DNA of 64,000 nt from Planctomycetaceae bacterium. Its GTDB lineage: Bacteria > Planctomycetota > Planctomycetia > Pirellulales > Pirellulaceae. The notes beneath the pieces are model-generated. The model saw only the letters and a list, made by a program, of their open reading frames with translations, made no database searches and was not told the DNA's origin. Both the position numbers and the translations under genes were made by a program. Below are positions 8,243 to 35,447 of the stretch, piece after piece. The stretch lies in contig JAAYDI010000141.1 in the NCBI GenBank assembly GCA_012729315.1, positions 1 to 64,000 on the forward strand. Direction: 5' to 3'. The first letter of the stretch is position 1; every line of letters begins with the position of its first letter.

Positions 8243-8325
8243 TCGGACCGAACCACGCACGCGGGTGCGCGACTCGTCCGCGTGCTGCGCGGTGGCAGGT
8301 GCTATAGGGTGGCAGCAGGGTCTGT

Positions 8326-9462: not shown

Positions 9463-9741
9463 GGGCGTTTCCTTCTTTTCTTCCAGTACCGGAGAGAGTT
9501 GCGTGGGGGGAGCGGCGGTGCCATATCCCCACAACAGCATCCTGGTTAAGATCAGCGTTATGAACAAGTGCCGTCGCGGCATTCTGCGCCGCACGCGGCC
9601 CCTGGTGGAGACACACATGCGGATGGCCGACGAATCATTCTACCGGCGGTGCGGGCGGGACGCTGCTGTTGGCGGCCCTGCTGTTCGCGCCGCTGATTGT
9701 CTGGGGGGCCACCGCGCGATTCTCAGCATTGTGAGAAAGCC

Positions 9742-12363
9742 ATGAAACTGATCATCCCGAGCACTTGGGCTGGCTGTCTGATGGCAGTCGCCGCATTGGC
9801 GGCAGTTGCGGAGGTGCCGCACAGCGTGAAGTTGGTGACCACATTCGACGCCCAGCAATTCCTCTCACCGGATGCGGTGTTCTGGCCGGCCCCGTTCTGG
9901 CTGTGGAATGCTCCGCTCGAGCCCGACCGTCTGCGGGCACAATTGCACGACATGGCAGCGCACGGATTCCGCAGCGTGTGCATGCTGCCGATGCCGCATG
10001 CGTTTCGTCCGGACAGTACGAACAATCTGCTCGATCCGGATTACCTCACGCCGGAGTTCCTGGAGCGGGCGCGGTTGGCCGTTGACGAGGCCTCGTCACT
10101 GGGCATGCGGTGGTGGCTGTACGACGAAGGTGGCTGGCCGTCCGGCCAGGCGGTGGGCAAAGTCACCCAGGGGCATCCTGAGTTTTGTCAACAGACACTG
10201 GTGCGCGAACAGGTACCGGCCACGACGCCGCTGACGGTGCCCGACGATGCCTTGGCACTGGTCGTCGAAGAAACGCGTTGCGTCGTGCGTCCGGGCGAGA
10301 CGTGGACGCCGCAAGCTGGAGAGACCGCCTACGTGTATCGTGTCAAACGCGGCGGATATACCGACCTGCTCAATCCGCAGGCGACGCGGCGGTTTCTCGA
10401 ACTCACGCACGAGGCGTACCGGAACGTCCTGGAGCCGCACTTTGGCCAGACCGTACACTTCGCGTTTACGGACGAGCCGAACGCGCCCAATCTCCGTCCG
10501 CCAGATTCGATTACCTGGACGCCGAACATGGACGTGTTGTATCGCGACAGGTACGGTCGTGACATTGCTGAGATCCTGCCGCTGCTGTTCTCGCCGCCCG
10601 GCCAACACGCGGCGGCGGACGTCGCGCGCGCCCGCATCGACTTTTACGATTTATGGACGGCCCGGTTCCGCGATGCTTACTTTCTGACGATCCGCGACTG
10701 GTGCCGCCAGGTGGGGCTCGCCTCAGGCGGCCATTTGAATGGCGAGGACGAGACACTCAACGCGATCCGCTATGGCTTTGGCCACGCCTTGCGGCAACTG
10801 CGCGCGATGGACGTCCCCGGGGTGGATCTGATCTGGCGGCAGCTGTTTCCCGGCCAGGAGAATCCCCACTTTTTCCCGAAGTACGCGTCGAGCGCTGCCC
10901 ACCAGAATGGCACGCGCTTCGCCTTTACGGAATCGTTCGGCGTGTACGGCAATGGCCTCACCCCGGCTCAGGCAAAATGGCTCATCGACTACCAGTACGT
11001 GCGGGGGATCAATCTGGCGGTGATCGGTTGCCTGCCCCTGACGACGCAGGATCATCACATGACGGGTGAGCGCCCGCATTTCGGTCCCGTCGATCCGCTG
11101 TGGGACAGCGAGGAAGGGTTATGGAGATACACGGCGCGTCTGAGCTACCTCCTGTCGCTCGGGACGCCCGACGTGCGCGTGACGCTTTACTATCCCGTTC
11201 GCGATATGTGGGGGCTGGGGCTGGAGGCGGCGGAGGCGGCGGACACGCACGATCAATTGGCACAGGAACTGCTCGCCAGCCAGCGCGACTTTGACCTGAT
11301 CGACGATGATCTGCTGGCGGATCCGGCCACACGCATCGAAGGCACGCAGCTCGTCGCGGGCGCGATGCGGTACGACACCATTGTTTGCGGGAAGGTCCGC
11401 TGGATGCATCCCGACGCATTGGCGCGCTTGCGCGCCTTCGCGGACGCGGGTGGCCAGGTGATCTGTTGGGGCCATCAGCCGGGTACGGACGGTGCCGCCG
11501 GTGACGTGCGAGCCGCGTTTCCGTCGCCGGAAGCCGCCATGGCCGCCATTCCCGCCACTGTGGCGCTCATGCCTGCGTCGCGCGCAGTGCGTTCGGTTGG
11601 CCGGCACGTGGATGGGGGGAAAATACTGGTGTTGTTCAACGAAGGTGCTGCACCGTATGGCGGCGAGTTGCTTGTGGATGCCCCCTTTGCCTACACATGC
11701 GACATGGGCCTGGGCCGGCTGCTGTCTCTGCCGATACAGCAGCATCGTGTCCCCGTGCAACTCGGGCCCGGCGCGACGGGTGTGTACTTCCTGAGCCAGC
11801 AGGCACGCGACGCTGATCCGGCACGCGCGGCGTCTGACCAGGTCCTTGTTCTCGACGATCAGCTCCACGCCCGGCCCTGGCGGCGCTACGTGGTGGGCGA
11901 GCACGATTTCGAAATCATCGCGCAGGACCATCCGCCGGTCCCATTCGCCGAGGCCACGTCGTGGAGGACCTGGCTCACCGAGGATTACTCCGGGCAAGTG
12001 GATTACACGGCAACGGTTGAGCTGCCAGCCGATTGGGATGGTGAACTGCTGGAACTCCAGACCGGTCCCATCGAATATGCCGCACAGGTTTTGCTCGATG
12101 GCCAACCGGTCGGCAGCCTGCTATGGCCTCCCTGGCGTGTGGAACTGCCTTCCACCACCGCCGGGCGACACGAAATCACGATTCGCGTGGCCAATTCGCT
12201 CGCGAACGAACTCACGTCGCAGCGTGTGGTGGACGCCTGGAAATCCAAGAGCGGTCCGGGTTGGCCTAGCCCATATCACGAACGCGCGCTGGTGTTCGAG
12301 AGGCAGTCGCGCGGCGGTGGGATCCAAGGCCCCGTCCGACTGGTTGTGTTGAAGAGGAGTTGA
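9742..12363 (+). CDS. Exported GH106-like glycoside hydrolase (putative alpha-L-rhamnosidase)
   Basis: The 873-residue product begins at the ATG at 9742 and has a signal peptide (MKLIIPSTWAGCLMAVAALAA). The segment FWLWNAPLEPDRLRAQLHDM, followed by LGMRWWLYDEGGWPSG (about residues 119-134), is the hallmark of GH106 and related rhamnosidase-like families. Acidic residues in FTDEPNAPN (about 243) and GGHLNGEDETLN (about 328-340) are candidate catalytic or metal-binding groups. The C-terminal part (about 730-870) resembles the beta-sandwich sugar-binding domain of GH2-type enzymes. It probably removes rhamnose or a related sugar from polysaccharides in the periplasm or outside the cell. The family is inferred from motif memory; the substrate is open. 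Confidence 0.78.
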   Translation: MKLIIPSTWAGCLMAVAALAAVAEVPHSVKLVTTFDAQQFLSPDAVFWPAPFWLWNAPLEPDRLRAQLHDMAAHGFRSVCMLPMPHAFRPDSTNNLLDPDYLTPEFLERARLAVDEASSLGMRWWLYDEGGWPSGQAVGKVTQGHPEFCQQTLVREQVPATTPLTVPDDALALVVEETRCVVRPGETWTPQAGETAYVYRVKRGGYTDLLNPQATRRFLELTHEAYRNVLEPHFGQTVHFAFTDEPNAPNLRPPDSITWTPNMDVLYRDRYGRDIAEILPLLFSPPGQHAAADVARARIDFYDLWTARFRDAYFLTIRDWCRQVGLASGGHLNGEDETLNAIRYGFGHALRQLRAMDVPGVDLIWRQLFPGQENPHFFPKYASSAAHQNGTRFAFTESFGVYGNGLTPAQAKWLIDYQYVRGINLAVIGCLPLTTQDHHMTGERPHFGPVDPLWDSEEGLWRYTARLSYLLSLGTPDVRVTLYYPVRDMWGLGLEAAEAADTHDQLAQELLASQRDFDLIDDDLLADPATRIEGTQLVAGAMRYDTIVCGKVRWMHPDALARLRAFADAGGQVICWGHQPGTDGAAGDVRAAFPSPEAAMAAIPATVALMPASRAVRSVGRHVDGGKILVLFNEGAAPYGGELLVDAPFAYTCDMGLGRLLSLPIQQHRVPVQLGPGATGVYFLSQQARDADPARAASDQVLVLDDQLHARPWRRYVVGEHDFEIIAQDHPPVPFAEATSWRTWLTEDYSGQVDYTATVELPADWDGELLELQTGPIEYAAQVLLDGQPVGSLLWPPWRVELPSTTAGRHEITIRVANSLANELTSQRVVDAWKSKSGPGWPSPYHERALVFERQSRGGGIQGPVRLVVLKRS

Positions 12364-12648: not shown

Positions 12649-15600
12649 TCAGTTCTTCTGTTGCTTCGTGCCGAGCAGCAGTTCCAGGAGTGCGACGTGT
12701 TCAGAGACGTCGTCGTCCCAGCCGTCAGCCACATCGGCTGCGATCACATCGAGCAGGTCGTCGGTGTCGGCCGTGGCGAGGTAGTCGTGCAGCGCCAACT
12801 GCGGCGTCGTGTCAGCCTGGCCGATCGTCAGCCCGTAGTCGGCACTGAACGTTTCGGCCGCCGCGGTACCGGCCTGGTGGACTGGTGCGGCTCCTAGCGC
12901 TTTCCGGTCGCCCAGGGACGTCAGCGGGAGGGCCGGCAGTTCTGCCGTGGACAGACCGGCGCGGGGCGCCTGCAGGCTGGCCACCGCGTACTCCGCTTCG
13001 CCTTCGCCTTCTCCCTGTGGACTGTTGAGGTAGTTGATGATCAACAGTGCGTCGTGAGGCGAGACGAAGCCGTCACCGGATGCGTCGATGTACGGAGGCG
13101 GCTCGAGCGGAGGCATGGGCGGATTGGGCAGCTGCCGCGTGCCGCGGAAGTTCAGATCGTTGATGATCAGCAGGGCATCGATGGGAGACACATGGCCATC
13201 TGCGTTCACGTCCATGTGAATCAACGGATTCTGCCACGGATACGGATTCGCGATGACGCGGATCTCGACCGTTGCTTCGTTGGACAGTGTCCCATCGTCG
13301 TCCCGCACGGTGTAGGTGAAAGCATCGATGCCGACGTATCCGGTCATGGGAATGTAGGTCACCATGCCCTGGGCATCGACCGTGAGCGTGCCGAACATCG
13401 CCCTACTGACGATGGTCACGGAATCCGGCATGATCGTGCCGTCCACGTCATAGTCATTGGCCAGCACGTCGATGATCGTGGTGGCGTTTCGAGTGGCCTG
13501 CACGGAGTCGTCCACCGCGACCGGAGGCGCGTTGTACTCCAGCCATACCGTCGCCACGTTACTGACAGCACCGTAATCGTCGCACGCCCGATAGGTGAAC
13601 GAATCGGTGCCGCTGTAGTTTGGAGCGATGGTGTAGGTGATGGATCCGTCGGGCAAAACCGACACGGTGCCGTGCTGCGGTGGGGTGACGACCGTCACGG
13701 TCGCCGGGTCCAGTGTGCCGTCCACGTCAAAGTCGTTGGCCAGCACGTTCACATTCACCACACCGGCCGGCGGTACCAGGGCCTCATCGTCGATCGCGAT
13801 GGGCATATCATTGATCCCGGTGACCACTACGGTCACCATCGCATACTCGGACAGTGCAGTGCCATCAGTGACGCGGTACATGAACACATCCTGCAGGATG
13901 CTGCCGTCCGCGAGTGCCTGCAGCGCGGGAGCCGTCCGCGGATCGTAGGTGAAACTGCCATCCGCCTGCAGTGTCACGGCAGCGCCATGCTGGGACACGA
14001 GTTCCTGCGGGTCCACCTGGATGATGTCACTCTCGATGTCGCTGTCGTTGTCCAGCAGGCCGGGAGCAGTGACAGTCAGCCGCATGTCCTCCGACACGCT
14101 GTACTGGTCATCTGCCGCCACCGGCGCATCGTTCCGGCCGTGGACCGTGATGGTCACCGTAGCCGAACTGGTGGCGCCGGCCAGGTCGGTGATGGTGTAT
14201 GTCACGGTGTCTTCCACCGATTCGCCGAACTGGAGCGCCTGCAACTGGGCCGCGTTCTGCGGATCGTACAACAGCTCTCCGTCGGTCCCGATCGACACCG
14301 CCGCGCCGTATGCACTCACGCTGTCGAAGCTGGTCACCGTCAGGATCTCACCGCCGTCGATGTCGGTGTCGTTTTCCAGTACACCGGGCACGGCGACCTG
14401 AAGCAGATCGTCTTCCGTGGTGGTGTAGGCGTCATCGGCCGCCTGCGGGGCGTCATTCACGCCGGTGACGGTGACCGTCACGGTGGCCGTACTGGTCTCG
14501 CCTGCCAGATCACTGATGGTGTAGGTGAAGGTGTCCTGCACCGCTTCACCCGGCTTGAGTGCCTGGAGCGCTGCGGCGGCGCGCGGGTCGTACATCAACT
14601 CGCCCTCGGGAGTGATCGTCACCACGGCGCCATAGACGCTCAATGCCTCGAAGTCGGTCACTGTGAGAATGTCGCCGGCATCGGCGTCCGAGTCGTTGTC
14701 GAGCAGGCCGGGCGCGGCCACCTCCAGCAACTCGTCTTCGGAGGTGAGGTACACATCGGGGGCGGCCTGCGGCGTGTCGTTCCTGCCGGTGACGGTGACC
14801 GTCACCGTGGTGGAACTTGTGGCCCCGGTCAGGTCGGTCACCGTATAGGTGAAGGTGTCCTGCAGCGACTCGCCCGGGTTGAGTGCCTGCAGACTGAGGA
14901 CACCCACCGGGTCGTACCACAACTCGCCTTCCGGACTGACGATCACCGTGGCACCGTACGCGCTGACCCCATCAAACTGCGTCACGGTCAGCACGTCGCC
15001 GGCGTCCGCGTCGGTATCGTTCTCCAGTACGCCGGGCAGGAGCACGTGCAGCAGGTCATCTTCCGAGGTGCTGTATGCGTCCTCCGCGGGCTGCGGCACG
15101 TCGTTGCGGCCAAGGACGGTCACGGTGACGGTGGCCGTGCTGGTCGCCCCCGCCAGGTCGCTGACCGTGTACGTGAACGTATCTTCGAGCGACTCGTCGG
15201 ACCTGAGCGCCTGCAGCACGGCGGAGCCAGTCGGGTCGTACAGCAGTGCGCCTGCGGGACTGATGGTCACGACCGCCCCCTGCGCGCTGACGGCATCGAA
15301 CTCGGTTACGCTCAATGCGTCATCGATGTCGGCGTCGGTGTCGTTGGCCAGCACGCCCGGGGCGTCGACCTGCAGCAGGTCGTCCTCGGACGTCGTGTAC
15401 GCGTCGTCGACCGCCACCGGCACGTCGTTGACCGGGTTGATCGTGATGAACACCGTGGTGACGGCGGTCACCTCACCCATTTCGTCCGTGGCCTGGTAGG
15501 TGAACAGGTCGCTGGTCGTCTCGCTGCCGTCATGCTGATAGACGAATGTACCGTCCGGATTGAGCACGAAGGTGCCGTCATGGTAGTTCGGCGGCGTGAT

Positions 15601-18600
15601 GAGCTGGGCGGTGAGCACGTCGAAGTCGGCGTCGATGTCGTTGGCCAGCACGCTGTCGTCGTTCGTGTCCGGTGTGGCATTGAACCGGTCGTCGGCGATC
15701 AGCGTGGCGCCTTCGTCGACGACATAATGATCCTCGACCGCGACCGGCGGGTTGTTCGGGCCCGCGGTCGTGATCACGAACCGTGTTTCACCGGCGGCGC
15801 GGTTTGGGCGCAGTCCGTTGGCGGCCAGGTCGCGGATGCCGGTGGTGGGGTCGTTGGCCAGGACGATCTCATATACGTTGCGTCGCGGCGCGACCTCCCG
15901 CCGTACCGACAGGCGAATCTGATCGCCGATCGGATCGTAGCGGAACACGTAATCGGTGCCGTCCTTCAGTAAGACGCCGTTGAGGATCAGGGTGACGTTC
16001 CGGGAGACGACCGAGCGGTCGTCAAGGCCGATGCCCTCGTCCTGGATCGCCACCACGAACTCCGACACCACGAAGGCGTCGACGAGGACGGTTGACAGTT
16101 CGGGATCGAGGTCGATGGTCGCATCGTTGTCGGCCGGCAGCGTCAGGAGTGCATAGGGACCGGCGAAGTCCACTCGCTCCACCGCTCCCCGGTCTTTGAA
16201 GATGTTCGAGCCGAGGCCGGGCGGAGGCGACTGGAGCGGATCGTCAATCCGCAGCTGGCCGAACCGATCGTAGTCGGGTGCGACGATCGGCGCGGGTGGG
16301 ATCGCCAGCGGCGACTGGACCGCCACGATCGACGGCCGGTCGTCCAGGCGGTTGACGGAGCTGTCGATCGCCTTGGTGCCGGCCGCCAGGTAGAAGTTGC
16401 CGCGTTCGGCGTCGACAAACAACGGCGCGTTGTCGGCCAGCAGGATCGCATTGCTGCCGGTGACCCCGTTATTGGTGTTCGACTTGAACAGGTTGGCCCC
16501 CAGGACCGTGGACGTCGAGGTCGCATCGATCAGGATACCGTTCTCGGTGTTGGCCACGATGTTGTTCAAGATCGTGGGGCTCGTGTTCTGCTCGACCGTG
16601 ATGCCCGTTCCGAGCGGTTCCGCGCTGCCGTAAATGGTGTTGTTCACCAGCAGGCCAAAGGGCACGACAGCCTGTGGCGTGCCTGCCGCGTTCGGATCGC
16701 CGCTGAACATAATCCCGCCCACTCCGGACTCGGCAATCACGTTGTTCCGGATGGTCAGGCCGCGTACCAATCGGGACGAGTTGAGTGTCGGCATGTTGAT
16801 GGCGGCGCCTGGGTGCGGCACGCCGGTCGCGTCGCGCGCCGCGGCGTCCACCAGGATGCCATACCCCGACGCGAACCGCACGGTGTTCGCCTCGAGCCGT
16901 AGCTGTCCCTGGACACGCTCGACGTTCTGGTCCCCCAGCCACAGCAGCGGCCCGATCAAACGCGTGTTCGTGTGGAACAGGCGGGCGAGGACGATCTCGG
17001 GGTCGGTGCCACTCACGCTGACGCCGTATTCCGTACCGCGCCGCATCTCCAACTGGTACGGTCCCGCCAGCACCTGTTTGGGTCCGGACGGATCCGGGTT
17101 CTGGGGTACCATGAAGTAACTGTTGGCCGAAGAAGGTCCCGTGACCATTTCGCCGCGTTCGGCGAACCCGATCATAACGTCGTCGATGTAGGCCCCCTCG
17201 AAGTTGTTCTGCTGCGCGCGTTGAGCGCTGGAAAGGTCGCCGTACTGGTCCCCCGGCGCCTCCTGACTCATTGTGCCGGAGGTGCTGAAATCAAACCGGA
17301 TTTCGATATAGCCGTAGCCGGCGAAATCCGACAAGTCGACGCGGGCCTGCCGCCAGCCGCCGGTGTTGTCATATAGTTCCTGCACGCGCTGCCGCGGATC
17401 GGGAGACGCGTTGGAGGACACGGACAGGTACCGCGGCAACTCGGCATTCAGCGTGGAGTTGTTGGTGGCCAGCAGTGACCAGGAGTAGCCGCCGTCGACG
17501 GAGGCAAGCACGCGGAAGCTGTCCCGCATCTGGTTGGAGTTGCTGTTGGCCCCCTGCGTGGCCAGGAAGTAGTTGAAGTACAGGGTGGGCTTGTCGGCCG
17601 CTGTGTAGCTGGCCAGGCAGAACGGGTTCGTGACCAGGCTGCCACGGGTGCCGCCCGGTACATTGTACGTCGCCGCAATCGCAGTGTTCGACGCCAGATC
17701 GCGGTGTGCCGTCTGACTCAGGAACCCGTACTGGGCGTTGACGTTGTCGTAGTCGAAGTACGCATTCTGCGGATTCTGCTGCCATGTTTCGAAACCGAAA
17801 TAGAAGCTCGCCCCGCCTTCCGTCGAGGTGATCGGCCGGCCATTGACATCGGTCGTCCAGGTGACATTGGCGGGACGGCTCTGGTCGAAGGTGGAGGTGA
17901 TGCCGTGCCCCGGGTCTGACCGGCGCTGCATGGTGGGGTGCCACAAGTTGACGTCCGCCGACGAGAAGGCCAAACCGGTCGCACCGTACACGTATGTGCT
18001 GGCCGATGTCGATCCACCGCTGAAAACGCCCTGCATCTCGCCTGTGGTGTCCAGGGCGTAGAGTGTACCGCTCCAGTCGATGGCGAACAGCAGGTTCGCG
18101 TAGGCGCCATCCTCGACGTTCTGCGGTCCTGCCGTCAATCCGGTGAACGACGGCCCGAGCGACCGCACGTTCGATGCCTGACCAGACGACGAAATCCGGT
18201 AGAACATCCCCGAGTCGCTCACGCCGTACAGCAGGCCGTTGAGAAACGCCATGCCGGTCGTGACGCCCACGTCGCCCGGTTCTGTCTCGTAGATCCCTCC
18301 CCGCAGCCCCCACGGTTGGTCCGTCGCCACGGCGGCGGAACCATTGGCGGGATTTGCGCGGTACAGGGTCGACCCGGTTGCTGCCCCACGGATCCCGCGC
18401 ACGGCATAGTAGAGATCGTACTGCGGGACGCCGGCGGCGTCCGCCCCTACGCGCCGGTAGGCCAGCGCATCCACCGCGTCCGACGTCAACTGCTGCGGGT
18501 TCGGCGGATTCGTGTCGGGGTTATAGTCCGGAATCGAATCGTTGCCCACGGTCGACTGAGCCGCGTTCGACCAGTCAATGGAAATGAGCCGGCCGGCCGT

Positions 18601-21600
18601 GTTCTGGCCACCCGGCAGCGCCTCGACGCCGTACATCCGCCCATCCGAACGCAGGGCGATATCCAGCACACCGCCGCCGCTGCCGCCGAGGTTCCCGACG
18701 TACGTCTGCGGGGCGCCGGTGAATGGATTGACGATCGACAGGCCGCTGCCGCGGGACACGTACAGGACCACGTCCTCGAGTGTGAATGGCAGGACATGAG
18801 TCTGCAGATCCAGTGTCGTTTCCACGTCGAACAACGTCTGGAGCGGCACCGCGAGCGACCCGTTGCCCGGCACCCCTGTCGGGTGACCGCTGAAGCCGAT
18901 GTGATCCTCCGCGATCCGGACGAGAGAGTTGATCGGTTCGAGCCGCACCAGCGTATTGCTGGAGTTGGAGGTGAAGGTCGCGTTAAGCGCCAACGGCAGT
19001 TGGGCGTCCGACGAGACCGCCACATAGTATCGAGCAGTGCTGCCCGCCGGCGCCACACCGGCCGGCATCTGGACCGAGCCGATGAAGGCATCCAGGGTCC
19101 CGAAGCTGCCGCGTGTCAAGTCGTCCGTGGCGGTGCCCTGCCCGGCACGCGGCTGATCGTCTTCGACATTCGAGTCGCGACTGACCAGGACCAGGTTTCC
19201 ATCAGCGTCAAAGACGCACATCGTCGTGTCGGGCCGCGACAGGCCGTCGGCATAGTCAATGTCAAAGATGGTGGCCCAGGTCTTGCCGCCTCCGTTGACG
19301 CCCGCAATCGCCTGGATCAGGTCATAGTCCAGTGTGAAGGTGTACCAGTCGACGTCGGTGGCCGACGACAGGCTGCCGGCCACACTGATGACGTTGCGGT
19401 CGGTGGCCAGCAGGTTGCCCAGCGGCTGCGCGTTGCCCAACACATCGTTGGCCGCAGTCGATTCCGCCGATTCGCCCATCAAGGGCGAATGGCCGGGCAT
19501 GCCGAACACCTCGATGCCATTGGTCGCGTAGGAGATCTCCGCGTTGCGGATGATCGAGCCGGGCACTTCGTCGACTTGCTGGAGCCGCACTTGCAGCCGG
19601 TACTCGCCGCTGCTCTGACCAGCTTCCAGATCCGATTCCTGACCGACCGGCGGCTGGCTGCGGACCCGGATGTAACAGTACTCCGACTGCGTCGCCTCGC
19701 CGGGAATGACCACTCGCATCCCCGGATCGCGCGCGTCCAAGGTATAGAAGTCGCGCCCCTGCCACGCGTTTTTGATCAGCGGTTTGGCGATGCCGCTGAG
19801 CGTTTCATTGTCGTAGGAACTGGCCAACACCGTGCCGTCGGCCCGGAACAGCTCGACGATGGCGTCGAGCGAGGATCCGGTCAGATCGAGGTCGATCCAC
19901 ACTTCCGTGCCACCCAGTGCGGTGAAGCCGTAGACGTCGAGATCGGCCGGATCGTCCGCCGCGATGAAGCCGTGGACCTGGAAGCCCAGGCGGCGGTCGG
20001 CATCGCCACTTTTGAGGTTGGGGGCGAGCACGCCCAGAATCTGTGCGGTGGCGGAGGTCGCATTCACGTCCTGGCCGCCGGTCAGCGGCGGTTCGCTCTC
20101 GCGCACCAGTTCGACGTTCCTGTCGTTGCTGTACTGGCCGAGCCGGATGCTGCGCCAGTCGCCGGGCGTTCCTTCACTTGGTCCATCGTTGTTCGTGTCG
20201 GTCATGGGCAGGCCGTTCAAGCCAATTCCCGCGCCGACGCTGTCGTCCTTCAACGACGTGAAGATCACCGGATAATGGGGTGTCCCGAGCACGTAGAAGC
20301 TGCCCCCCACGCGGTCGTCGATATCCAGCGGCTGGCCGTTGGCCGTGAATCCGGCCGTCGGGGAGCCCAGCTTCACCACCAGGCTCTCGCGCTCGCCGCT
20401 CTGCAACCGCAGGCCGCTGAGCGTGTGGTAGTTCAGCAGGATGATCTCGTCGAACAGCACGTGGGCGATATCTGTGTCGTCCCACACCGACTCGGTGGTC
20501 AGCACGGCGCCGCGCACGACCAGCCCTTCGATGGCGTTGTTGTCCAGCAGGTTCTGCCGTACCAGCGGACCGTGGTTGTCAGCGTACTGGCTGAAGCGGT
20601 CGCTGCGCCCGGTCGCCCGTCCCCAATCGGTGACGGTCGCGGCCTTGAGGGAGTTGGCGTCGATCGACATGGCCGGGCCGGCGTTGTCGAGCATTGTGTT
20701 GTGCACCAGGACGGGCTGCGCGCCGCGGATGAAGATCGTGGAGGCCTCATTGCCGCCGCGCCCCACGCGGTCGGTACTGGCCTGGCCCGACTCGTTGCGG
20801 GTCAGCAGGCTGTTGGTCAGCCGCACATCCGCCTGGTGGATCTCGAGCGCTGCGAACTGATCGAATCCGCCTTCGATGGGCGTCTGGCCACCGGCGAAGG
20901 AGATCAGCACATGATCCAGGCTGCCCGTGGACATGGCGTTGAAGAAGATGCCGCCCCACTGGCCGGGCTCCGCGTCGGTGGCGTCGAGGTCATTGTTCGT
21001 GTCGACGGTCCCGCCGGCGCCGTACCGATCGTCCTTGATGGAGGTGAAGATGACCGGCCGCTCCGCCGTGCCTTCGGCGATCAGCTGAGCGCTCATCTCG
21101 GCCTCGATGCGCGCCCCCTGCAACTTGACGATCAGCCCCGGGTCGATCCGCAGCCGCGCGTCGTAACGGGCGACCAGGTCGCCGGTCGCCGCGTCGAGCG
21201 TGGGGCCGCCGGGGGTGCCATCGATCAGCAGGTTCTCGCTGACCACATGCACGACATCGGTGTCGTCCCACCGCGCCGCGACGCTCAGCCGGTCGAGCGC
21301 CTGGCCCAGCTCCGTCTGGATCCGCACGAACAGGCCGTTGATGCTGTTATCGACCAGCAGGTTATTGTGGATGTCGGGCCCGATGCGGCCCAGCGAGTCT
21401 TCGAAGCTGTTCAGGTTCGCGGAGAGTGCTGCATCCGCGCTCTGGCGGATCACCGAATAGGAGATAGTCGGCCGCACGCTGGTCATGTCGACCGGCGTGA
21501 ACGTCTGCCGCACCGAGTTGACCAGGACCTTGCCGCCGCCGTTATGGAGATCGGCGTGGTTGACCCAGTTCAGGAAGATCCCCTCCTCCTCCAGTCCCGC

Positions 21601-24600
21601 GTCGTCGCGGAACACGATGCCGCCCCAGTCGCCGGGGCGCGCGATTTCACCCGGACCGTTGCTATCCCCTCCGGCGCTGTCGTCGCGATAGGATCGGAAG
21701 TACACCGCGGCCTCGGGGGTCCCCAGCACCTGTACGGCGCCGGCGCTGCGATCCACCCCCAGTGCGGATGTGCCGACGTCGATGTTGGCGGCCATCAGCT
21801 TCAGCAGGACTCCTGCGTCGATCATGACCGTGACCCCCTGCGGCACGATCAGGCCGGCACCGTCCGCCAGCGGGCGCTGAGCCGTGTCCACACCGAGCAG
21901 ATAGGGCACGTTGTCGGCCAGTGTGGCCAACGACCCGTCCGTGCCGCCGTTGCCTACGATCCGGACGAGATTCGACGCACTGAGCAGCGCCCGAGTGCCG
22001 CTCACGTCGAGCAGCTTGGCGTTGCTCAGACGCATGATCGAGCCGTCGGGGGTGGCGGTGGTGTCCAGGTTGGCGGCTGTGTTGATGGCCCCGGCAATTG
22101 CCGCAGCCACGGCGGCCGGAGTGTCCGCGGCCGCGAATGAGATCGGACGCGTGCCGGGCCGCGTCTGACCGTCCTGGTCGAATTCGAACACCACGGCCGG
22201 GTGCAGCCCATCACCCACCACGATCTGATCGCCGTCGTGCAGCGCCGCGCCGCCCGCGGCTGGCACGACGATCCGCGCTGCGGCGGCCGCCAGGGCCGTG
22301 GCGATGGTATCGTAGGGATCCGCCAGGGTTCCGCTCCCCTCAGGCGCGCTGGTGGTGCTGTTCATCTTGTCGACAAAGATGGTCGGCCCGGTCTGGAACC
22401 AGAAGTCGAACTGGCCGCCCGGCGACCCGTCGCCATCTCCATCCAGACTGGTCTGGTGCTGCGCGTCGACGAGTGTCGACGCGGAGTCGGCGACGAACGA
22501 CAGAGTCAGTTCGTAGAGACCCTCGGACGTGCCGCCAAACCCGGTGTTGTCGATGGCGGGATCGAAGCCCACATTGCCGGAGCTGGTGACCGCGATGTAG
22601 TACACCCCCGCCTCCAGCCAGACCTCCAGCCACGGGTCGCTGCTGTAGTAGTCGTCATTGGACGCGATGACCTGGCGCGCGACGCCCTGCGGAGTGGCCG
22701 TTTCCTGGTAGAGGGTCAGGGCGGCATCCAGCAGGCTGCTGCTGGGCGCCATCCGTTCGGCCACGATTTCCGCGGTCACGCGGCCCGCTTCCGGCACTTC
22801 GAACCGGTACAGGTCGATGTCATTCGCCGCCGGGGGGTAGATGAACTGGGCGTGAATCACGTCCGCATCGCCGGGGAACACCGGCTCGGCAGGCGGTGCC
22901 TCCGGGATCCGGTTGCTGCCCATGATCGTCAGTTCGGGCAGATCGTACGTATGTCCCAGTCCCAGGCTGTGGCCGATCTCGTGCATCGCGGTACGGAACC
23001 ACGACCCGCCATACGGACTGACGCCCCAATCCTCGGCCGCATCCATGATAACGCGAGCGCCCATCGATCCTTCGGACAAACCGGCCACTCCGCCGGGGCC
23101 TGTCGGTATTGACGGATCGATGGCGCGCAGGTCGCCGGTCACGACCGTCAGGCCACGATTGGCCGTCTCGACAAACTTGATCCCCAGCAGTTTGCCGTAG
23201 ATTTCGAAGATCTCGCGCGTGCGGTCCTTCTGGTTCTCGGTGATGACGTTTTCCGGTCTATCGCCACTCGGCAGCACGCCATAGTAGCGTTGGAAGTTGT
23301 AGTACGCGGTGGGAACCGATTGTGCGTTGGGTTCATAACCCGAGGTGATCAGCGCGAGCGACTCGGCCGCGTTGATCCGGCCACCGGTCGCGCTGTCACC
23401 GGTCAACTCCGGAATTACGTCCACCCCTCCGAGCACGGCGTTCTTGAGTTGTGTCACGGTGGCGTTCGGCGCCACGCTCGCAAGAAGCCCAATCACGCCG
23501 GTAACGTGCGGCGCGGCCATCGACGTGCCCTCGAACATGGCGTACGAATGACCGCCAATCGTGCTGAGGATGTCCACGCCAGGTGCCGACACGTCCACCG
23601 AGGTGGCCCCATAATTGGAGAACGAGGCACGGGTGTCTTGGTTCGTCGTGGCGCCCACCGAGATGATCCCGTCCAGGTCGAAGTTGGCGGGATAGAAGGG
23701 AATCACATCGGTGTCTGCCCCATCGTTGCCCGCCGCGGCAACATACACGATTCCCGCGGCGATGCTGCGTTGGATCGCAAGCAGCAACGAATCCGAGTAT
23801 GCTCCCAGAGCGCCATAACTGTTATTGCTGGCCACGATGTTCACGCCGTAGTCCGACTTCATCATGGTCATGTAGTCGATCGCTTCAATTGCGCCGGCAA
23901 CGGATCCGCCGCCCGTTTCGGGTATGAACTTGAGGGCCATGACGCGGGCTTGCCAGTTGATGCCTGTCACCCCTATGCCGTTGTCGCCCGAGGCCGCGAT
24001 GGTGCCCGCCACATGCGTTCCGTGGTCACGGTCATCCATCGGGTCGGAATCACCATTCACGGTATCGATGCCATAAATGTCGTCGATGTATCCGTTGCCG
24101 TCATTGTCCAATCCGTCGCCGGGTATTTCTCCCGGGTTGACCCACATGTTTGCGATCAGGTCGGGATGGGTGTAGTCCACGCCCGTGTCAATCACCGCGA
24201 TCACGATGTCCGAAGACCCGGTCGTGATGTCCCATGCCTCAGGCGCATTGATATCCGCGTCCGGCGTTCCGCCAAACTGACCGGTGTTGTTCAGCCCCCA
24301 GAGCTGACCAAAATCCGGGTCGTTTGGATACGTGTTACTGACGTCCAGGAGATAGTCGGGCTCGGCGAAGGCCACGGCCGCAAGGGAAGCCAACTCCCAT
24401 GTCTGCTGCAGAACGTCGATTCCCTCAGATGCTTCTACCACCAGCGTGCCTGACAAGTCCTTGACCACGTGCAGTCCGCGCGCTGCCAGGATGGCGGCAC
24501 GCTCCTCTGCACTCGTGTCAGCATTGAACCGGATCAGCAAGCGATCGGGAACGTAGGACAGACCGTTGTAACCACCCCCCAAGAAATGCGACTCGGGGGG

Positions 24601-26412
24601 AATGTGGCGATGGCCGGGTTCCAGCAGGCTGCCCGGCATGTTCAGCTCCATCGCCGGATTGCTGATCACCGTGAACACCGACTGACCGGCGGCCCCCAGC
24701 ACGCCCAGGGGCGTAGCCTTGGCGAAACTCGAATTGTCGTCGTCGCGGCTCAATGGCTGATCGAACGAGATCGCGATCGTGTAGCTGCCACTCGAGGTGC
24801 CGCCACTTGCCCCGCTGCCGGTCAGCGGCAGATAGGCGACGTTGCCGCTGCTCGACACACCGACATAATACATGCCGGCGTCGGGCACTGAGACCGATAG
24901 CGTCTCGCGTGCACCCTGCCCTGGCATGTCGGACTGCGCCAGCTCGGTGCCGGCCGCCGTGAAGACGCGCAGGACGCCGTCGAGCGTGTCCGCTGGCGCG
25001 AGTTCGACCGTGATCACCCCGGCTGCCATGACGTCCACCCGGTACAGGTCCACGTCGTTGTGACCGTCCTGCGAATCGCCCCCCAGGCTCGATGTCTTGG
25101 CATAGTCGGGCGGCGTGTCCGCCGGATCGTTCACAATCAACTTCCAGCTGATGAGTTCTCCCTCGTTGTCCGTCGCCGTGTCCTGGATCTCCAGCCGCCA
25201 CGAGCCGGTGACCGACAGATTGTCAAAGACGCTGAGCGACTCGATCGGCCGGAAATGCCCGGTAAACGGACCTTCCCCGGCGGTGATCGAGACCGTCGCT
25301 TCGTCGTCCAGGATCGTTCCCGTAAACGGGCCCAGCACCCCCTGCGTGGGAGTCACCCGAATCAGCTCAACCCGGTCCCCGCGCGGACCCACCAGGTGCA
25401 CGCGCAAGTCGGGCGAATACGCGTGCTCCATGTTGATCTCGACATTAATGTCGCGGACCAGGTATGTGTCGTGGACCGAAATGCGCGACGTCACCGTCTC
25501 GTTGTCGCGGATCGGGATCGTGACCGGGTCGCCATTCTCGTCCACAATCTCCGGACTGGCGTAGACCACATGCTCCGCCCGCTGCACCAGCGTCCCAACG
25601 CTGGTCGCCGTCGCTGCCGAGTTGTTCGGTTCATCCGAAACGCCGATCTGCAGACGATAGGTGCTGTCCGGCAACTCGTCGGCGAACGTGAGCACCGCCT
25701 GCTGCGCCGCCGCGTCGTATTGCACCTGCTGCGGCAGCAGTAAGGCACCCGTCAAGGCATCCACCAGATGGTAGAAGGCCGGATTCGATGCCGCCGCCGC
25801 GTCCAGCTGCGAACTGTTGAAGTACACAACGATCTGGTCCTTCGCCTGACTCAGCGCGCCCGTGTCCGGATCGCGCACCACCGGCTGCGGCACCACCGAA
25901 ATGACCTGCGTCCCCTGGTCCAACGTGAACTGAATGTCCAGATCCTTGCCGCCATTGAACGGCACTCCATTGGTATTCCTCACCGACCCGTCGACGTGAA
26001 TGCCATACACGTCGTCCGGCAGCGCCTCGGCGAATCGCAGGATCACCTCGTTCGGCGATACACCCAGACCCCGGTAACCGGCCGCCACCACCACATCGTC
26101 CTCATCACCCAGGATGCCGTTGTCCCCCGCACGGCTCAACTGAAAACCACTCAGCGTCGCCGGGTTGATCACATCGTCCGTGTCGAACTGAAAGAGCAAC
26201 TCGCGGAACGCGTCGTGCCGGATGTCGCCGTCTTGAGTGAGGCGACCATCCACCCTGATCTCCAACAACTCCGGACCCACCGCCAGCAGGCGACGAGGCT
26301 CGAGTGACTCAACGATGAGATGACGCAGGGTCTCGCGACGCGCACGATTGTAATCGTTCTGACGCAGTACCCGCTGATGATGGAGAGAGCGATGAGGGCG
26401 TCGCAGAGTCAT
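12649..26412 (-). CDS. Giant exported multidomain protein with subtilisin and metzincin domains, cadherin-like repeats and dockerin
   Basis: The product is 4587 residues, starting at the ATG at 26410-26412 with GGGAGAG upstream. Reading from the N-terminus: an LEPRRLLAV motif (about 38-45, known at the N-terminus of large planctomycete exported proteins); a proprotein-convertase P-like domain (about 305-425); a pre-peptidase C-terminal-like domain (about 430-550); a subtilisin domain with Asp in VIDTGVDYTHPD (about 742), His in DHGTHVAG (about 797) and Ser in GTSMAAPH (about 964); a zinc site HEIGHSLGLGH (His1144, 1148, 1154); a second PPC-like domain (about 1195-1305); long parallel-beta-helix-like and beta-propeller-like stretches (about 1400-3400); eight cadherin-like repeats (about 3555-4385); and a dockerin pair of EF-hands (DVNADGHVSPIDALLI and DASGDGFVSPHDALLI, about 4397-4461). 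It is probably anchored at or released from the cell surface. The substrate is unknown. Confidence 0.93.
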   Translation of the reverse strand: MTLRRPHRSLHHQRVLRQNDYNRARRETLRHLIVESLEPRRLLAVGPELLEIRVDGRLTQDGDIRHDAFRELLFQFDTDDVINPATLSGFQLSRAGDNGILGDEDDVVVAAGYRGLGVSPNEVILRFAEALPDDVYGIHVDGSVRNTNGVPFNGGKDLDIQFTLDQGTQVISVVPQPVVRDPDTGALSQAKDQIVVYFNSSQLDAAAASNPAFYHLVDALTGALLLPQQVQYDAAAQQAVLTFADELPDSTYRLQIGVSDEPNNSAATATSVGTLVQRAEHVVYASPEIVDENGDPVTIPIRDNETVTSRISVHDTYLVRDINVEINMEHAYSPDLRVHLVGPRGDRVELIRVTPTQGVLGPFTGTILDDEATVSITAGEGPFTGHFRPIESLSVFDNLSVTGSWRLEIQDTATDNEGELISWKLIVNDPADTPPDYAKTSSLGGDSQDGHNDVDLYRVDVMAAGVITVELAPADTLDGVLRVFTAAGTELAQSDMPGQGARETLSVSVPDAGMYYVGVSSSGNVAYLPLTGSGASGGTSSGSYTIAISFDQPLSRDDDNSSFAKATPLGVLGAAGQSVFTVISNPAMELNMPGSLLEPGHRHIPPESHFLGGGYNGLSYVPDRLLIRFNADTSAEERAAILAARGLHVVKDLSGTLVVEASEGIDVLQQTWELASLAAVAFAEPDYLLDVSNTYPNDPDFGQLWGLNNTGQFGGTPDADINAPEAWDITTGSSDIVIAVIDTGVDYTHPDLIANMWVNPGEIPGDGLDNDGNGYIDDIYGIDTVNGDSDPMDDRDHGTHVAGTIAASGDNGIGVTGINWQARVMALKFIPETGGGSVAGAIEAIDYMTMMKSDYGVNIVASNNSYGALGAYSDSLLLAIQRSIAAGIVYVAAAGNDGADTDVIPFYPANFDLDGIISVGATTNQDTRASFSNYGATSVDVSAPGVDILSTIGGHSYAMFEGTSMAAPHVTGVIGLLASVAPNATVTQLKNAVLGGVDVIPELTGDSATGGRINAAESLALITSGYEPNAQSVPTAYYNFQRYYGVLPSGDRPENVITENQKDRTREIFEIYGKLLGIKFVETANRGLTVVTGDLRAIDPSIPTGPGGVAGLSEGSMGARVIMDAAEDWGVSPYGGSWFRTAMHEIGHSLGLGHTYDLPELTIMGSNRIPEAPPAEPVFPGDADVIHAQFIYPPAANDIDLYRFEVPEAGRVTAEIVAERMAPSSSLLDAALTLYQETATPQGVARQVIASNDDYYSSDPWLEVWLEAGVYYIAVTSSGNVGFDPAIDNTGFGGTSEGLYELTLSFVADSASTLVDAQHQTSLDGDGDGSPGGQFDFWFQTGPTIFVDKMNSTTSAPEGSGTLADPYDTIATALAAAAARIVVPAAGGAALHDGDQIVVGDGLHPAVVFEFDQDGQTRPGTRPISFAAADTPAAVAAAIAGAINTAANLDTTATPDGSIMRLSNAKLLDVSGTRALLSASNLVRIVGNGGTDGSLATLADNVPYLLGVDTAQRPLADGAGLIVPQGVTVMIDAGVLLKLMAANIDVGTSALGVDRSAGAVQVLGTPEAAVYFRSYRDDSAGGDSNGPGEIARPGDWGGIVFRDDAGLEEEGIFLNWVNHADLHNGGGKVLVNSVRQTFTPVDMTSVRPTISYSVIRQSADAALSANLNSFEDSLGRIGPDIHNNLLVDNSINGLFVRIQTELGQALDRLSVAARWDDTDVVHVVSENLLIDGTPGGPTLDAATGDLVARYDARLRIDPGLIVKLQGARIEAEMSAQLIAEGTAERPVIFTSIKDDRYGAGGTVDTNNDLDATDAEPGQWGGIFFNAMSTGSLDHVLISFAGGQTPIEGGFDQFAALEIHQADVRLTNSLLTRNESGQASTDRVGRGGNEASTIFIRGAQPVLVHNTMLDNAGPAMSIDANSLKAATVTDWGRATGRSDRFSQYADNHGPLVRQNLLDNNAIEGLVVRGAVLTTESVWDDTDIAHVLFDEIILLNYHTLSGLRLQSGERESLVVKLGSPTAGFTANGQPLDIDDRVGGSFYVLGTPHYPVIFTSLKDDSVGAGIGLNGLPMTDTNNDGPSEGTPGDWRSIRLGQYSNDRNVELVRESEPPLTGGQDVNATSATAQILGVLAPNLKSGDADRRLGFQVHGFIAADDPADLDVYGFTALGGTEVWIDLDLTGSSLDAIVELFRADGTVLASSYDNETLSGIAKPLIKNAWQGRDFYTLDARDPGMRVVIPGEATQSEYCYIRVRSQPPVGQESDLEAGQSSGEYRLQVRLQQVDEVPGSIIRNAEISYATNGIEVFGMPGHSPLMGESAESTAANDVLGNAQPLGNLLATDRNVISVAGSLSSATDVDWYTFTLDYDLIQAIAGVNGGGKTWATIFDIDYADGLSRPDTTMCVFDADGNLVLVSRDSNVEDDQPRAGQGTATDDLTRGSFGTLDAFIGSVQMPAGVAPAGSTARYYVAVSSDAQLPLALNATFTSNSSNTLVRLEPINSLVRIAEDHIGFSGHPTGVPGNGSLAVPLQTLFDVETTLDLQTHVLPFTLEDVVLYVSRGSGLSIVNPFTGAPQTYVGNLGGSGGGVLDIALRSDGRMYGVEALPGGQNTAGRLISIDWSNAAQSTVGNDSIPDYNPDTNPPNPQQLTSDAVDALAYRRVGADAAGVPQYDLYYAVRGIRGAATGSTLYRANPANGSAAVATDQPWGLRGGIYETEPGDVGVTTGMAFLNGLLYGVSDSGMFYRISSSGQASNVRSLGPSFTGLTAGPQNVEDGAYANLLFAIDWSGTLYALDTTGEMQGVFSGGSTSASTYVYGATGLAFSSADVNLWHPTMQRRSDPGHGITSTFDQSRPANVTWTTDVNGRPITSTEGGASFYFGFETWQQNPQNAYFDYDNVNAQYGFLSQTAHRDLASNTAIAATYNVPGGTRGSLVTNPFCLASYTAADKPTLYFNYFLATQGANSNSNQMRDSFRVLASVDGGYSWSLLATNNSTLNAELPRYLSVSSNASPDPRQRVQELYDNTGGWRQARVDLSDFAGYGYIEIRFDFSTSGTMSQEAPGDQYGDLSSAQRAQQNNFEGAYIDDVMIGFAERGEMVTGPSSANSYFMVPQNPDPSGPKQVLAGPYQLEMRRGTEYGVSVSGTDPEIVLARLFHTNTRLIGPLLWLGDQNVERVQGQLRLEANTVRFASGYGILVDAAARDATGVPHPGAAINMPTLNSSRLVRGLTIRNNVIAESGVGGIMFSGDPNAAGTPQAVVPFGLLVNNTIYGSAEPLGTGITVEQNTSPTILNNIVANTENGILIDATSTSTVLGANLFKSNTNNGVTGSNAILLADNAPLFVDAERGNFYLAAGTKAIDSSVNRLDDRPSIVAVQSPLAIPPAPIVAPDYDRFGQLRIDDPLQSPPPGLGSNIFKDRGAVERVDFAGPYALLTLPADNDATIDLDPELSTVLVDAFVVSEFVVAIQDEGIGLDDRSVVSRNVTLILNGVLLKDGTDYVFRYDPIGDQIRLSVRREVAPRRNVYEIVLANDPTTGIRDLAANGLRPNRAAGETRFVITTAGPNNPPVAVEDHYVVDEGATLIADDRFNATPDTNDDSVLANDIDADFDVLTAQLITPPNYHDGTFVLNPDGTFVYQHDGSETTSDLFTYQATDEMGEVTAVTTVFITINPVNDVPVAVDDAYTTSEDDLLQVDAPGVLANDTDADIDDALSVTEFDAVSAQGAVVTISPAGALLYDPTGSAVLQALRSDESLEDTFTYTVSDLAGATSTATVTVTVLGRNDVPQPAEDAYSTSEDDLLHVLLPGVLENDTDADAGDVLTVTQFDGVSAYGATVIVSPEGELWYDPVGVLSLQALNPGESLQDTFTYTVTDLTGATSSTTVTVTVTGRNDTPQAAPDVYLTSEDELLEVAAPGLLDNDSDADAGDILTVTDFEALSVYGAVVTITPEGELMYDPRAAAALQALKPGEAVQDTFTYTISDLAGETSTATVTVTVTGVNDAPQAADDAYTTTEDDLLQVAVPGVLENDTDIDGGEILTVTSFDSVSAYGAAVSIGTDGELLYDPQNAAQLQALQFGESVEDTVTYTITDLAGATSSATVTITVHGRNDAPVAADDQYSVSEDMRLTVTAPGLLDNDSDIESDIIQVDPQELVSQHGAAVTLQADGSFTYDPRTAPALQALADGSILQDVFMYRVTDGTALSEYAMVTVVVTGINDMPIAIDDEALVPPAGVVNVNVLANDFDVDGTLDPATVTVVTPPQHGTVSVLPDGSITYTIAPNYSGTDSFTYRACDDYGAVSNVATVWLEYNAPPVAVDDSVQATRNATTIIDVLANDYDVDGTIMPDSVTIVSRAMFGTLTVDAQGMVTYIPMTGYVGIDAFTYTVRDDDGTLSNEATVEIRVIANPYPWQNPLIHMDVNADGHVSPIDALLIINDLNFRGTRQLPNPPMPPLEPPPYIDASGDGFVSPHDALLIINYLNSPQGEGEGEAEYAVASLQAPRAGLSTAELPALPLTSLGDRKALGAAPVHQAGTAAAETFSADYGLTIGQADTTPQLALHDYLATADTDDLLDVIAADVADGWDDDVSEHVALLELLLGTKQQKN
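13260..15745 (-). repeat. Eight tandem cadherin-like (Ig-fold) repeats inside the giant gene
   Basis: The encoded segment contains eight units of about 100 residues. Each opens with N-D-x-P-x-A-x-D-x-Y and carries LxNDxD about 30 residues later, as in VPGVLENDTDIDG. The five units from about 13960 to 15430 are the most alike, sharing TSEDDLLxV and xDTFTYTxxDLxGxTSxxTVTVTV, which suggests recent duplication. The LxNDxD and DxD acidic motifs are typical calcium-binding positions of cadherin-like and VCBS-type repeats. Such arrays act as rigid spacers. Confidence 0.85.
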
Positions 26413-30248: not shown

Positions 30249-30772
30249 GGTGAGGATCCTTCGTGAAACATGCTCAGCGCGCCGCGTTCCAGCGCGTCGA
30301 GGAAGTGGTGGTTGCTGGTGAGTAGTCCGGGCAACGCGCGGATTTCGCGGCAGGTGAGCCAGTGTGTCGCGGCCACCTCCGCCGGGTTGGGCTGCAGCGG
30401 GGAGGCCGGGTCGAGTTCCGCGAGCCACCACCGCAGGTCGACCTGCCACGGGGTGATGCTCTGCCAGATGCGGCGCACCGGCGCTGCCTCCACCCCCAGC
30501 TCCTCGCGCAGCTCGCGGCGCAGCGCGTCCTGTTCGCTTTCGCCCGGTTCGATGGCCCCGCCTGGGAAGCAGTAGGTGCCGGGTGCCTCGACCGTGGCAG
30601 CGCGGCGTATCACCAGCAGCCGGTCGCCGCGGCAGATCACCGCCACGGCGCCACAGCGCGTGGCCAGCGGCGGAGGGCTGCCGGACTGGCGGCGGCCGGT
30701 GTACGCGCGGTTCTCGACCGGCGCCCGGTCCGGCTGGTTCGTCGTGTATCTTGGAGGAACGTGCGGATACAT
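30245..30772 (-). CDS. NUDIX hydrolase
   Basis: The 175-residue product contains a full NUDIX box at residues 71-94 (GGAIEPGESEQDALRRELRE followed by ELGV), matching GX5EX7REUXEEXGU, which binds the divalent cations used to hydrolyse nucleoside-diphosphate-linked substrates. The N-terminal 35 residues are disordered-looking, so an internal start is possible. A CYCFPGG-like approach to the box and the WLTCREI segment are typical of MutT-like housecleaning enzymes. It is divergent from recQ with 59 bp between the starts, and its stop overlaps the start of the exported glycosidase by 4 nt. That coupling is odd, because the two products work in different compartments. Confidence 0.88.
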   Translation of the reverse strand: MYPHVPPRYTTNQPDRAPVENRAYTGRRQSGSPPPLATRCGAVAVICRGDRLLVIRRAATVEAPGTYCFPGGAIEPGESEQDALRRELREELGVEAAPVRRIWQSITPWQVDLRWWLAELDPASPLQPNPAEVAATHWLTCREIRALPGLLTSNHHFLDALERGALSMFHEGSSP

Positions 30773-30831
30773 CTACAATGCGTGCTCCGGAGCGAGCGTG
30801 GCGCCAAGCCTCTGGTGGTGGACGGATCTCG

Positions 30832-33396: not shown

Positions 33397-33515
33397 CCGC
33401 GCGGGGTGCATCGCAATTTCGCCAGGGGTGCTATACAATTGGCGTACTCCTTGGCGGGCAGCGTTGAACGCGGGCAGCATTGAAGAACCCAGAGCAGGAC
33501 GTTGGAAGGACGGTA

Positions 33516-35444: not shown

Positions 35445-35447
35445 GCT

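Follow-up and report, generated by a model that had tools for sequence, protein, structure and literature searches.

A subtilisin-type protease inserted between a metzincin and its histidine-bearing pro-segment in a giant planctomycete protein

Results

Organization of the giant gene

The window analysed here is a stretch of 64,000 nucleotides from Planctomycetaceae bacterium (NCBI GenBank assembly GCA_012729315.1, contig JAAYDI010000141.1, positions 1 to 64,000). Its minus strand carries an unbroken open reading frame (ORF) from 26412 to 12649, which encodes a probably exported giant protein of 4587 residues. The original prediction, in which the strand was unstated, placed a subtilisin triad and a metzincin zinc site in this one chain, followed by adhesive repeats and a dockerin. 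This was borne out, as D742, H797 and S964 of the triad and the zinc motif HEIGHSLGLGH (residues 1144-1154) are all present, together with eight Cadherin_4/Big_9 stretches over the Pfam cut-off and a Dockerin_1 domain (residues 4400-4463). In the Pfam search, the S8, M10, PPC, P-domain and dockerin domains all scored over cut-off, and the P-domain and the first PPC domain were found to precede the S8 domain. The central observation is that the S8 cassette (residues ~613-1030) is inserted exactly between a pro-segment and the metzincin, at a site that is empty in relatives. The features of the protease region are as follows.

12649..26412, minus strand: gene of the 4587-residue giant protein (ORF list and Pfam)
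25135..25455, minus strand: proprotein-convertase P-domain (P_proprotein), residues 320-426 (Pfam; its second half also in the S8-less relative L152)
24850..25056, minus strand: first PPC domain, residues 453-521 (Pfam; three PPC stretches in all)
24586..24636, minus strand: pro-segment motif PGSLLEPGHRHIPPESH with His601 and His609, residues 593-609 (homologue alignments)
23323..24576, minus strand: inserted S8 cassette of prodomain and catalytic domain, residues 613-1030 (empty-site alignments; edges accurate to about 10 residues either way)
24355..24564, minus strand: fervidolysin-type prodomain PF22148, residues 617-686 (Pfam, 20.6 bits, slightly short of the cut-off of 21)
23434..24213, minus strand: Peptidase_S8 with D742, H797 and S964, residues 734-993 (Pfam, E 2e-48, 165.6 bits against a cut-off of 21.8)
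22873..23322, minus strand: matrixin-like metzincin catalytic domain, residues 1031-1180 (Pfam, profile search and the modelled fold of homologue L078)
22951..22983, minus strand: zinc motif HEIGHSLGLGH, residues 1144-1154 (sequence)
22912..22929, minus strand: Met-turn TIMGSN with M1164, residues 1162-1167 (sequence)
22483..22830, minus strand: PPC-type part after the metzincin, residues 1195-1310, resembling the first PPC domain (family alignment)

The S8 cassette occupies an insertion site between pro-segment and metzincin

The pro-segment motif PG..EPGHR.I..E.H directly precedes the S8 insertion. When residues 430-612 and 1027-1160 were joined, alignments of the resulting sequence bridged the junction in 41 of 85 relatives. 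The distance from the end of the N-terminal module to the metzincin is at most 213 residues in 40 of the first 45 relatives and 421-707 residues in the other five, and it amounts to ~750 residues in the 4587-residue protein. The clearest empty site was seen in L152 (genome G608), where the counterpart of residues 359-622 (46% identity) directly adjoins that of residues 1032-1330 (61% identity), and the metzincin tree groups L152 with the 4587-residue protein (support of 92 in the Shimodaira-Hasegawa-like approximate likelihood ratio test, SH-aLRT; 99 with L146 included). The shared stretch 359-622 comprises part of the P-domain and all of the first PPC domain (Pfam, blastp). Since these domains precede the S8 domain and are common to the S8-less L152, they do not belong to the S8, and the idea that the P-domain is part of the S8 enzyme was rejected for this protein. 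A different S8 in another branch of the family has a P-domain after it, near the N-terminus.

The same arrangement was found in a second genus (genome G411, loci L146/L191) with 54% identity over residues 362-1306. In G411 the order is P-domain, PPC, EPGHRQIPVETH, prodomain, S8 and metzincin, with the pro-segment, the S8 motifs and the zinc site all present; here ~3000 residues separate the S8-metzincin pair from the N-terminal module, which it does not immediately follow. In a third genome, likewise of a genus other than that of the 4587-residue protein (G730, L192/L208), the pro-segment and the HGTH and GTSM motifs are present and the metzincin is cut by the contig edge. An assembly chimera was considered and is thought unlikely, because the ORF is unbroken and the arrangement recurs in these two genomes of other genera at ~51-57% identity.

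A single clade of the S8 cassettes of the three genomes was rejected in the approximately unbiased (AU) test (p 5.9e-6), while a clade of the L191 and L192 cassettes was not (p 0.083); the three-cassette clade was defined by arrangement, but after a quick tree had been viewed. As the three cassettes do not form one clade, this single site has received or swapped a cassette repeatedly, and at least two sources contributed, by separate insertion or by exchange.

The inserted domain is a predicted subtilase with its own prodomain

The triad motifs of the inserted domain are DTGVDY (742-747), HGTHVAG (797-803) and GTSMAAP (962-968, with Ser964). By this canonical set of Asp, His and Ser motifs the domain is a subtilase and a predicted protease. 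It also appears to carry its own fervidolysin-type prodomain, from which autoprocessing is predicted; in L146 the PF22148 match is over cut-off (26.3 bits). The HGTH and GTSM motifs are present in all 11 cassette-type S8 loci (L191-L201), so conservation of the serine site, a point on which the original prediction turned, held for the cassette type; it held less well for the 10 N-terminal S8s of the other type, where simple motif searches detected the His and Ser motifs in eight and all three motifs in six. The same searches gave no His or Ser match in the N-terminal S8s of L079 and L151. In L079 (L079:3-3230) the metzincin is zinc-dead too, and both of its proteases may be inactive.

The second protease is a matrixin-like metzincin

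Peptidase_M10 (PF00413) matched residues 1058-1157 with 28.1 bits against a cut-off of 24 (E 2e-6), and some homologues score below this cut-off. The HExxHxxGxxH zinc motif, the general base Glu1145 and the Met-turn methionine M1164 are intact in the 4587-residue protein, and in G411, too, no ligand is missing and both the general base and the Met-turn are preserved. The Met-turn TIMGSN had been expected at residues 1160-1165; the motif is indeed there, about two residues further on. Among zinc-intact modules this position holds Met in 65 of 87 and Gln in 16 of 87.

Beyond the motif, the assignment is supported by a profile match and by a model fold. A 46-sequence profile matched human MMP-12 in the PDB over profile positions 30-127, which include the zinc helix (E 3e-6). 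A low-confidence model of the homologue L078, with a predicted local distance difference test (pLDDT) score of 51, aligned with serralysin (Z 9.9), MMP-11 (Z 9.2) and karilysin (Z 8.4), and its best 50 structure matches in VIA-align were all metzincins (Z 9.9-8.3), in line with the metzincin fold that had been expected. For a model of the module of the 4587-residue protein itself (pLDDT 52), the best Foldseek match was MMP-1 (E 5.6e-4), the only one under E 0.001; its top matches were MMPs and collagen-binding PPC-type structures.

The metzincin core is a widespread family in which the zinc site is often lost

The 4587-residue protein belongs to a large family of giant and probably exported proteins with a common core of N-terminal module, pro-segment, metzincin and PPC domain. 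In genome searches that scored the best candidates per genome, the 46-row profile of the metzincin core matched at least 176 of 396 genomes of the order, 32 of 118 genomes of the class and 7 of 149 genomes across the phylum, three of the last matching the PPC part only. When residues 601-1310 were compared with 60 relatives, among the matches listed the S8 part lay mostly in ORFs of ~500-3000 residues and the metzincin-PPC part mostly in giant ORFs of 2000-10000 residues.

Of 136 homologous modules, 87 retain the zinc site (HEHH) and 49 have lost it, with at least 20 changes of state on the tree; 87/136 is not an unbiased fraction, because the first 45 relatives were drawn from strong matches to a zinc-intact query. 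Losses include the second core copy of the same genome (L043, G000:C95:1-17000), a 4567-residue giant with the broken zinc motif HEIGRLLGLHL and His601 replaced by Asn. A further group, the S8 giants (among them L193-L201), had a zinc-dead metzincin module in 18 of 18 cases read, with the S8 far downstream; the nineteenth S8-giant locus (L227, G659) gave no module match. Zinc-ligand conservation in homologues, to which the original prediction had been tied, thus speaks in part against a general rule: the site is kept in the protein of interest and in most members with an additional enzyme (below), and it is gone from these others.

Such losses would be expected if the metzincin were mainly a structural or binding module whose zinc site is a relic, the fold region and the following PPC domain staying conserved and the coupling with the pro-segment histidines described below reflecting slow decay of an old enzyme. 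We regard this as improbable, since the ligands, Glu1145 and the Met-turn are all intact in both the 4587-residue protein and G411. Moreover, members with an extra enzyme, the 4587-residue protein included, keep the zinc site in 25 of 28 cases, compared with 62 of the 108 others (p 0.0017, ignoring kinship and with the S8 giants, which go the opposite way, excluded). The 108 others include nearly all members with fewer than 650 residues before the module and five of the 21 first-batch relatives with long N-termini, which were unscanned (L051, L056, L076, L081 and L082).

Other enzymes are mounted on the same core

Another enzyme is carried by 27 of the 61 relatives whose N-termini were scanned with Pfam. 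In 10 of them an S8 lies ahead of the N-terminal module (the order was verified for all 10, and nine have a P-domain), and a second metzincin is present in 12. M36 fungalysin with an FTP propeptide lies ahead of the core in two (L041:7133-11167 in G015, and L136:2183-5590 in G581, whose metzincin is zinc-dead). There is one case each of a gingipain-family C25 peptidase with propeptide at the N-terminus of a core giant (L096:2238-5963, G225), a PhoPQ-related hydrolase (L071) and an S8 in the linker (L146). A further metzincin-like match in L150 was just under cut-off and was left uncounted. A propeller can also take the place of the enzyme in the N-terminal slot: L091 has one of Sortilin/Vps10-like type (the corresponding match in L099 was under cut-off), and L112 has one of NHL type.

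This variety fits a reading in which the two proteases work at the surface independently of each other and merely share a scaffold. The core would then be a display platform for shuffled peptidase cassettes and the S8 would degrade external protein, its position in the linker being merely tolerated. Domain borders tolerate insertions, and in other giants the S8 cassette adjoins a PPC domain far from the metzincin. On the other side, S8s that do not form a clade and yet sit at exactly the same border exceed what tolerance needs, though recombination between neighbouring giant genes could give the same result. We consider such independent display a serious possibility, if not the one we lean towards.

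Neighbouring giants were encountered. In G505, G543 and G613, which were chosen for the closeness of the two places, the gene directly after an S8 giant on the same strand encodes a metzincin-core giant; the gaps between their stop-to-stop frames are 114, 136 and 3 bases, respectively. At L202, L203 and L204 the S8 giant with a dead metzincin lies directly upstream of the second core giant, and this pairing is possibly a trans version of the cis arrangement. In the first giant of G613, the module and the S8 are in two different frames, and the gene may therefore be split there.

Pro-segment histidines are coupled to the zinc site

Within the pro-segment, two histidines follow the state of the zinc site. 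In the first set (328 columns, 86 sequences), His609 was present in 57 of 57 zinc-intact members and in 20 of 29 with a broken site, and His601 in 51 of 57 and 14 of 29, respectively. For validation, 60 loci were taken, and 10 with ≥85% identity to an earlier row were excluded. In the 50 further modules (<85% identical), His609 was found in 29 of 30 intact and 10 of 20 broken members, and His601 in 26 of 30 and 8 of 20. The sole zinc-intact exception for His609, L146, proved to be an artefact, because the stretch directly before the metzincin had been read, where in L146 the S8 cassette intervenes; both histidines stand before its own S8 cassette. Two members were accordingly read by eye, namely L146, for which the alignment showed the S8 tail, and L118, for which the alignment was shifted, and L169 was left out of the histidine counts for having no recognisable pro-segment. 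The totals were then 87 of 87 zinc-intact against 29 of 48 zinc-dead members for His609, and 78 of 87 against 22 of 48 for His601. Removal of L092, a near-duplicate found among all 136 rows, changed the zinc-dead counts to 28 of 47 and 22 of 47.

To account for kinship among the sequences, two-trait models with dependent and with independent change were fitted on the tree for the 56 columns conserved in zinc-intact members. The strongest signal came from G1111 (minus strand, 23082-23080; p 1.7e-6), which is present in 84 of 87 zinc-intact and 19 of 49 broken members. His609 was second of the 56 columns (p 6.5e-4, ~0.04 when corrected for 56 tests), followed by I1146, G1151, P599 and His601 (p 0.03); only G1111 and His609 remained below 0.05 after correction. 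The neighbouring acid 598 and polar position 607 showed no covariation with the zinc site (p 0.47 and 0.76), and the other His, Asp and Glu columns outside the zinc motif were not significant (D1253, p 0.15; H1187, p 0.24).

G1111 lies before the zinc helix and is perhaps a cleft-rim residue. Its covariation exceeds even that of the histidines, so the contact cannot be identified from covariation alone. Two histidines at a conserved spacing would also suit a metal site distinct from the catalytic one, be it structural or regulatory, or substrate-like cleft contacts, going together with the active site and leaving the catalytic zinc unblocked. The behaviour of the remaining His, Asp and Glu columns described above speaks against this; we rate it very improbable.

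The classical switches were considered as well. Not a single pro-segment Cys was seen in the 86 zinc-intact members read, and the 4587-residue protein has four Cys in all, none of them near the proteases; a Cys switch was therefore rejected. An Asp switch was rejected too, as none of the pro-segment columns with ≥88% conservation is an Asp column. At position 603, Asp occurs in 49 of 87 members and His in the 4587-residue protein, and position 598, which does not covary with the zinc site, is Asp or Glu in 81 of 87. Given that the segment is coupled to the active site and that a Cys switch does not fit, the alignments point to the histidines as its best-conserved candidate metal ligands. His609 and Tyr1038 are separated by 15-20 residues in the central 80% of the 84 members compared, and the distance from His601 to the first strand is, we presume, about that of the switch Cys in MMPs. 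In the AlphaFold model of L078 the pro-segment is left unplaced (pLDDT 32-38), which speaks neither for nor against docking.

Remaining features and flanking genes

The other features of the giant gene are listed below.

26272..26325, minus strand: planctomycete extracellular signal PF07595, residues 30-47 (Pfam, 22.1 bits, under the cut-off of 25.5)
25588..26280, minus strand: N-terminal module common to the family, residues 45-275 (blastp to family members)
16459..16902, minus strand: beta-helix (Beta_helix), residues 3171-3318 (Pfam)
13243..15756, minus strand: cadherin-like/Big_9 tandem repeats, approximately residues 3553-4390 (Pfam and sequence reading; edges approximate)
13024..13215, minus strand: type I dockerin (Dockerin_1) with two EF-like repeats, residues 4400-4463 (Pfam)

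The N-terminal module (residues 45-275) has no Pfam match; by eye it gives the impression of an immunoglobulin-like fold. No cohesin partner for the dockerin was detected, as judged by the absence of a PF00963 match in the organism's own genome (96.65% complete); this gives no ground for calling the protein a cellulosome component, and the self-contained surface-processing machine of the original prediction is so far a conjecture. Opposite the giant gene, the plus strand has frames at 13054-15972 (972 residues) and 17938-22140 (1400 residues) with GTG starts, which are probably a side effect of GC-rich coding. According to Pfam, the flanks (5078-12363 and 26889-36590) encode an AcrB-type transporter, a mandelate-racemase-like enzyme, a GH106-like rhamnosidase and a 1361-residue protein with a CBM_11 match; two neighbouring ORFs (651 and 1020 residues) have no Pfam match.

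Discussion

That a serine protease might activate a metalloprotease in the same chain was only a guess in the original prediction. The S8 cassette is now placed exactly between a zinc-coupled pro-segment and the metzincin that this segment precedes in relatives, and the activation itself is what the following scheme proposes. The pro-segment motif would keep the metzincin latent, with the invariant His609, the usual His601, or both, binding the active-site zinc as Cys or Asp does elsewhere. The prodomain-subtilisin cassette would form the hinge between this pro-segment and the first metzincin strand. After export, the subtilisin would mature by cleavage of its own prodomain, and cuts at the edges of the cassette would then detach the latch and yield an active metzincin. 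The beta-helix, the cadherin-like repeats and the dockerin may keep both proteases at the cell surface or in the matrix. What the sequences themselves establish is the two full sets of active-site residues, the insertion with its empty counterpart in relatives, the recurrence in other genera and the histidine-zinc coupling, whereas histidine-zinc binding, latency, the cleavages and their order, the location and the substrates are inferred. A metzincin zymogen latched by histidine, with a subtilisin in its hinge, is the reading that we tentatively prefer, although we would stop short of calling it probable. A broader claim, namely that these are 'histidine switch' metzincins, a new zymogen type in a family of giant proteins in which foreign peptidase cassettes were repeatedly installed, here in the hinge between latch and enzyme, where a serine protease would turn on the metalloprotease of its own chain, seems doubtful to us at present.

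Several observations weigh against the latch. In a raw scan for association with the zinc site, not only the four ligand columns but also the non-ligand positions Y1156, V1109, M1123, G1111 and I1146 outrank the histidines, which come next. A test on independent pairs was not significant, with nine pairs on supported branches being too few; before L118 and L146 were re-read, an average of 1.4 pairs had His609 changing with the zinc site and 1.0 had it changing in the opposite sense. Among the 48 zinc-dead members 29 still have His609, as do 11 of the 18 zinc-dead S8 giants, and His601 is absent from 9 of the 87 zinc-intact ones. In the 4587-residue protein the latch lies ~430 residues from the metzincin, across an inserted domain, and must still reach the zinc. 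Lastly, the exact order of pro-segment, S8 and metzincin was found in at least 3 of 241 family genomes, a lower bound since the best candidates per genome were scored.

Both enzyme families are already known, and giant proteins that combine cadherin and dockerin domains have been described in planctomycetes, according to the available text of PMC11573180. The closest relatives of the metzincin are the matrixins (M10A), which comprise proMMPs and the bacterial karilysin and with which it shares the MMP-12 profile match, the zinc motif, the Met-turn, the fold of the L078 model and a short segment before the first strand. It differs from them in having pro-segment histidines, no Cys and no conserved Asp, in the subtilisin in its linker, and in its setting within a giant protein, where a PPC domain comes next. 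As far as the available portions of the sources go, MMP zymogens use Cys and karilysin uses Asp (PMC6949598), and the metzincin switches described are of the Cys or Asp kind (PMC6949598, PMC9848320). Promirolysin, a pappalysin, likewise has a short pro-segment that blocks the metzincin zinc and is activated by proteolysis; in contrast to our protein, its account in the accessible part of PMC6949598 is of a Cys switch and of auto-activation by the metzincin itself, with no inserted serine protease. The S8 cassette resembles the fervidolysin-type subtilases of planctomycetes in its NPro-like prodomain and complete triad, but is embedded between another protease and its pro-segment; among the matches listed, many of its closest counterparts lie in ORFs of ~650-2900 residues and some in giants. 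No report of a histidine switch in metalloprotease zymogens was found in the open-licence PMC literature, nor, judged by title and the start of the abstract, one of an S8 inside a metzincin pro-segment (subscription journals lie outside this literature).

Among described giants, the 'Matrixin' Pla52n_17500 of Stieleria varia has 6858 residues and comes last in a run of three giant genes with consecutive numbers in the available excerpt of PMC7717043. It is likewise giant, cadherin-like and matrixin-annotated, and its setting recalls the consecutive giant genes of G505, G543 and G613. Unlike here, that excerpt assigns adhesion and glycosyl-hydrolase functions from automated domains and does not describe a latch, zinc decay or S8 insertion. 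Planctomycetota huge proteins also carry Big_9, Cadherin and Dockerin_1 domains, the same make-up of repeats and dockerin as found here, whereas the words 'peptidase' and 'metallo' do not occur in the part of PMC11573180 that was available.

If it is true, the histidine latch would be a third type of metzincin switch beside Cys and Asp, and it can be tested on the 136 variants that nature provides in this family, some with a live and some with a dead zinc site. A protease seated within the latch of another protease would, if the scheme holds, constitute an activation cascade in one molecule. This would give a testable function to planctomycete giant proteins, which in the consulted parts of PMC11573180 and PMC7717043 are otherwise described mainly as adhesion or extracellular proteins.

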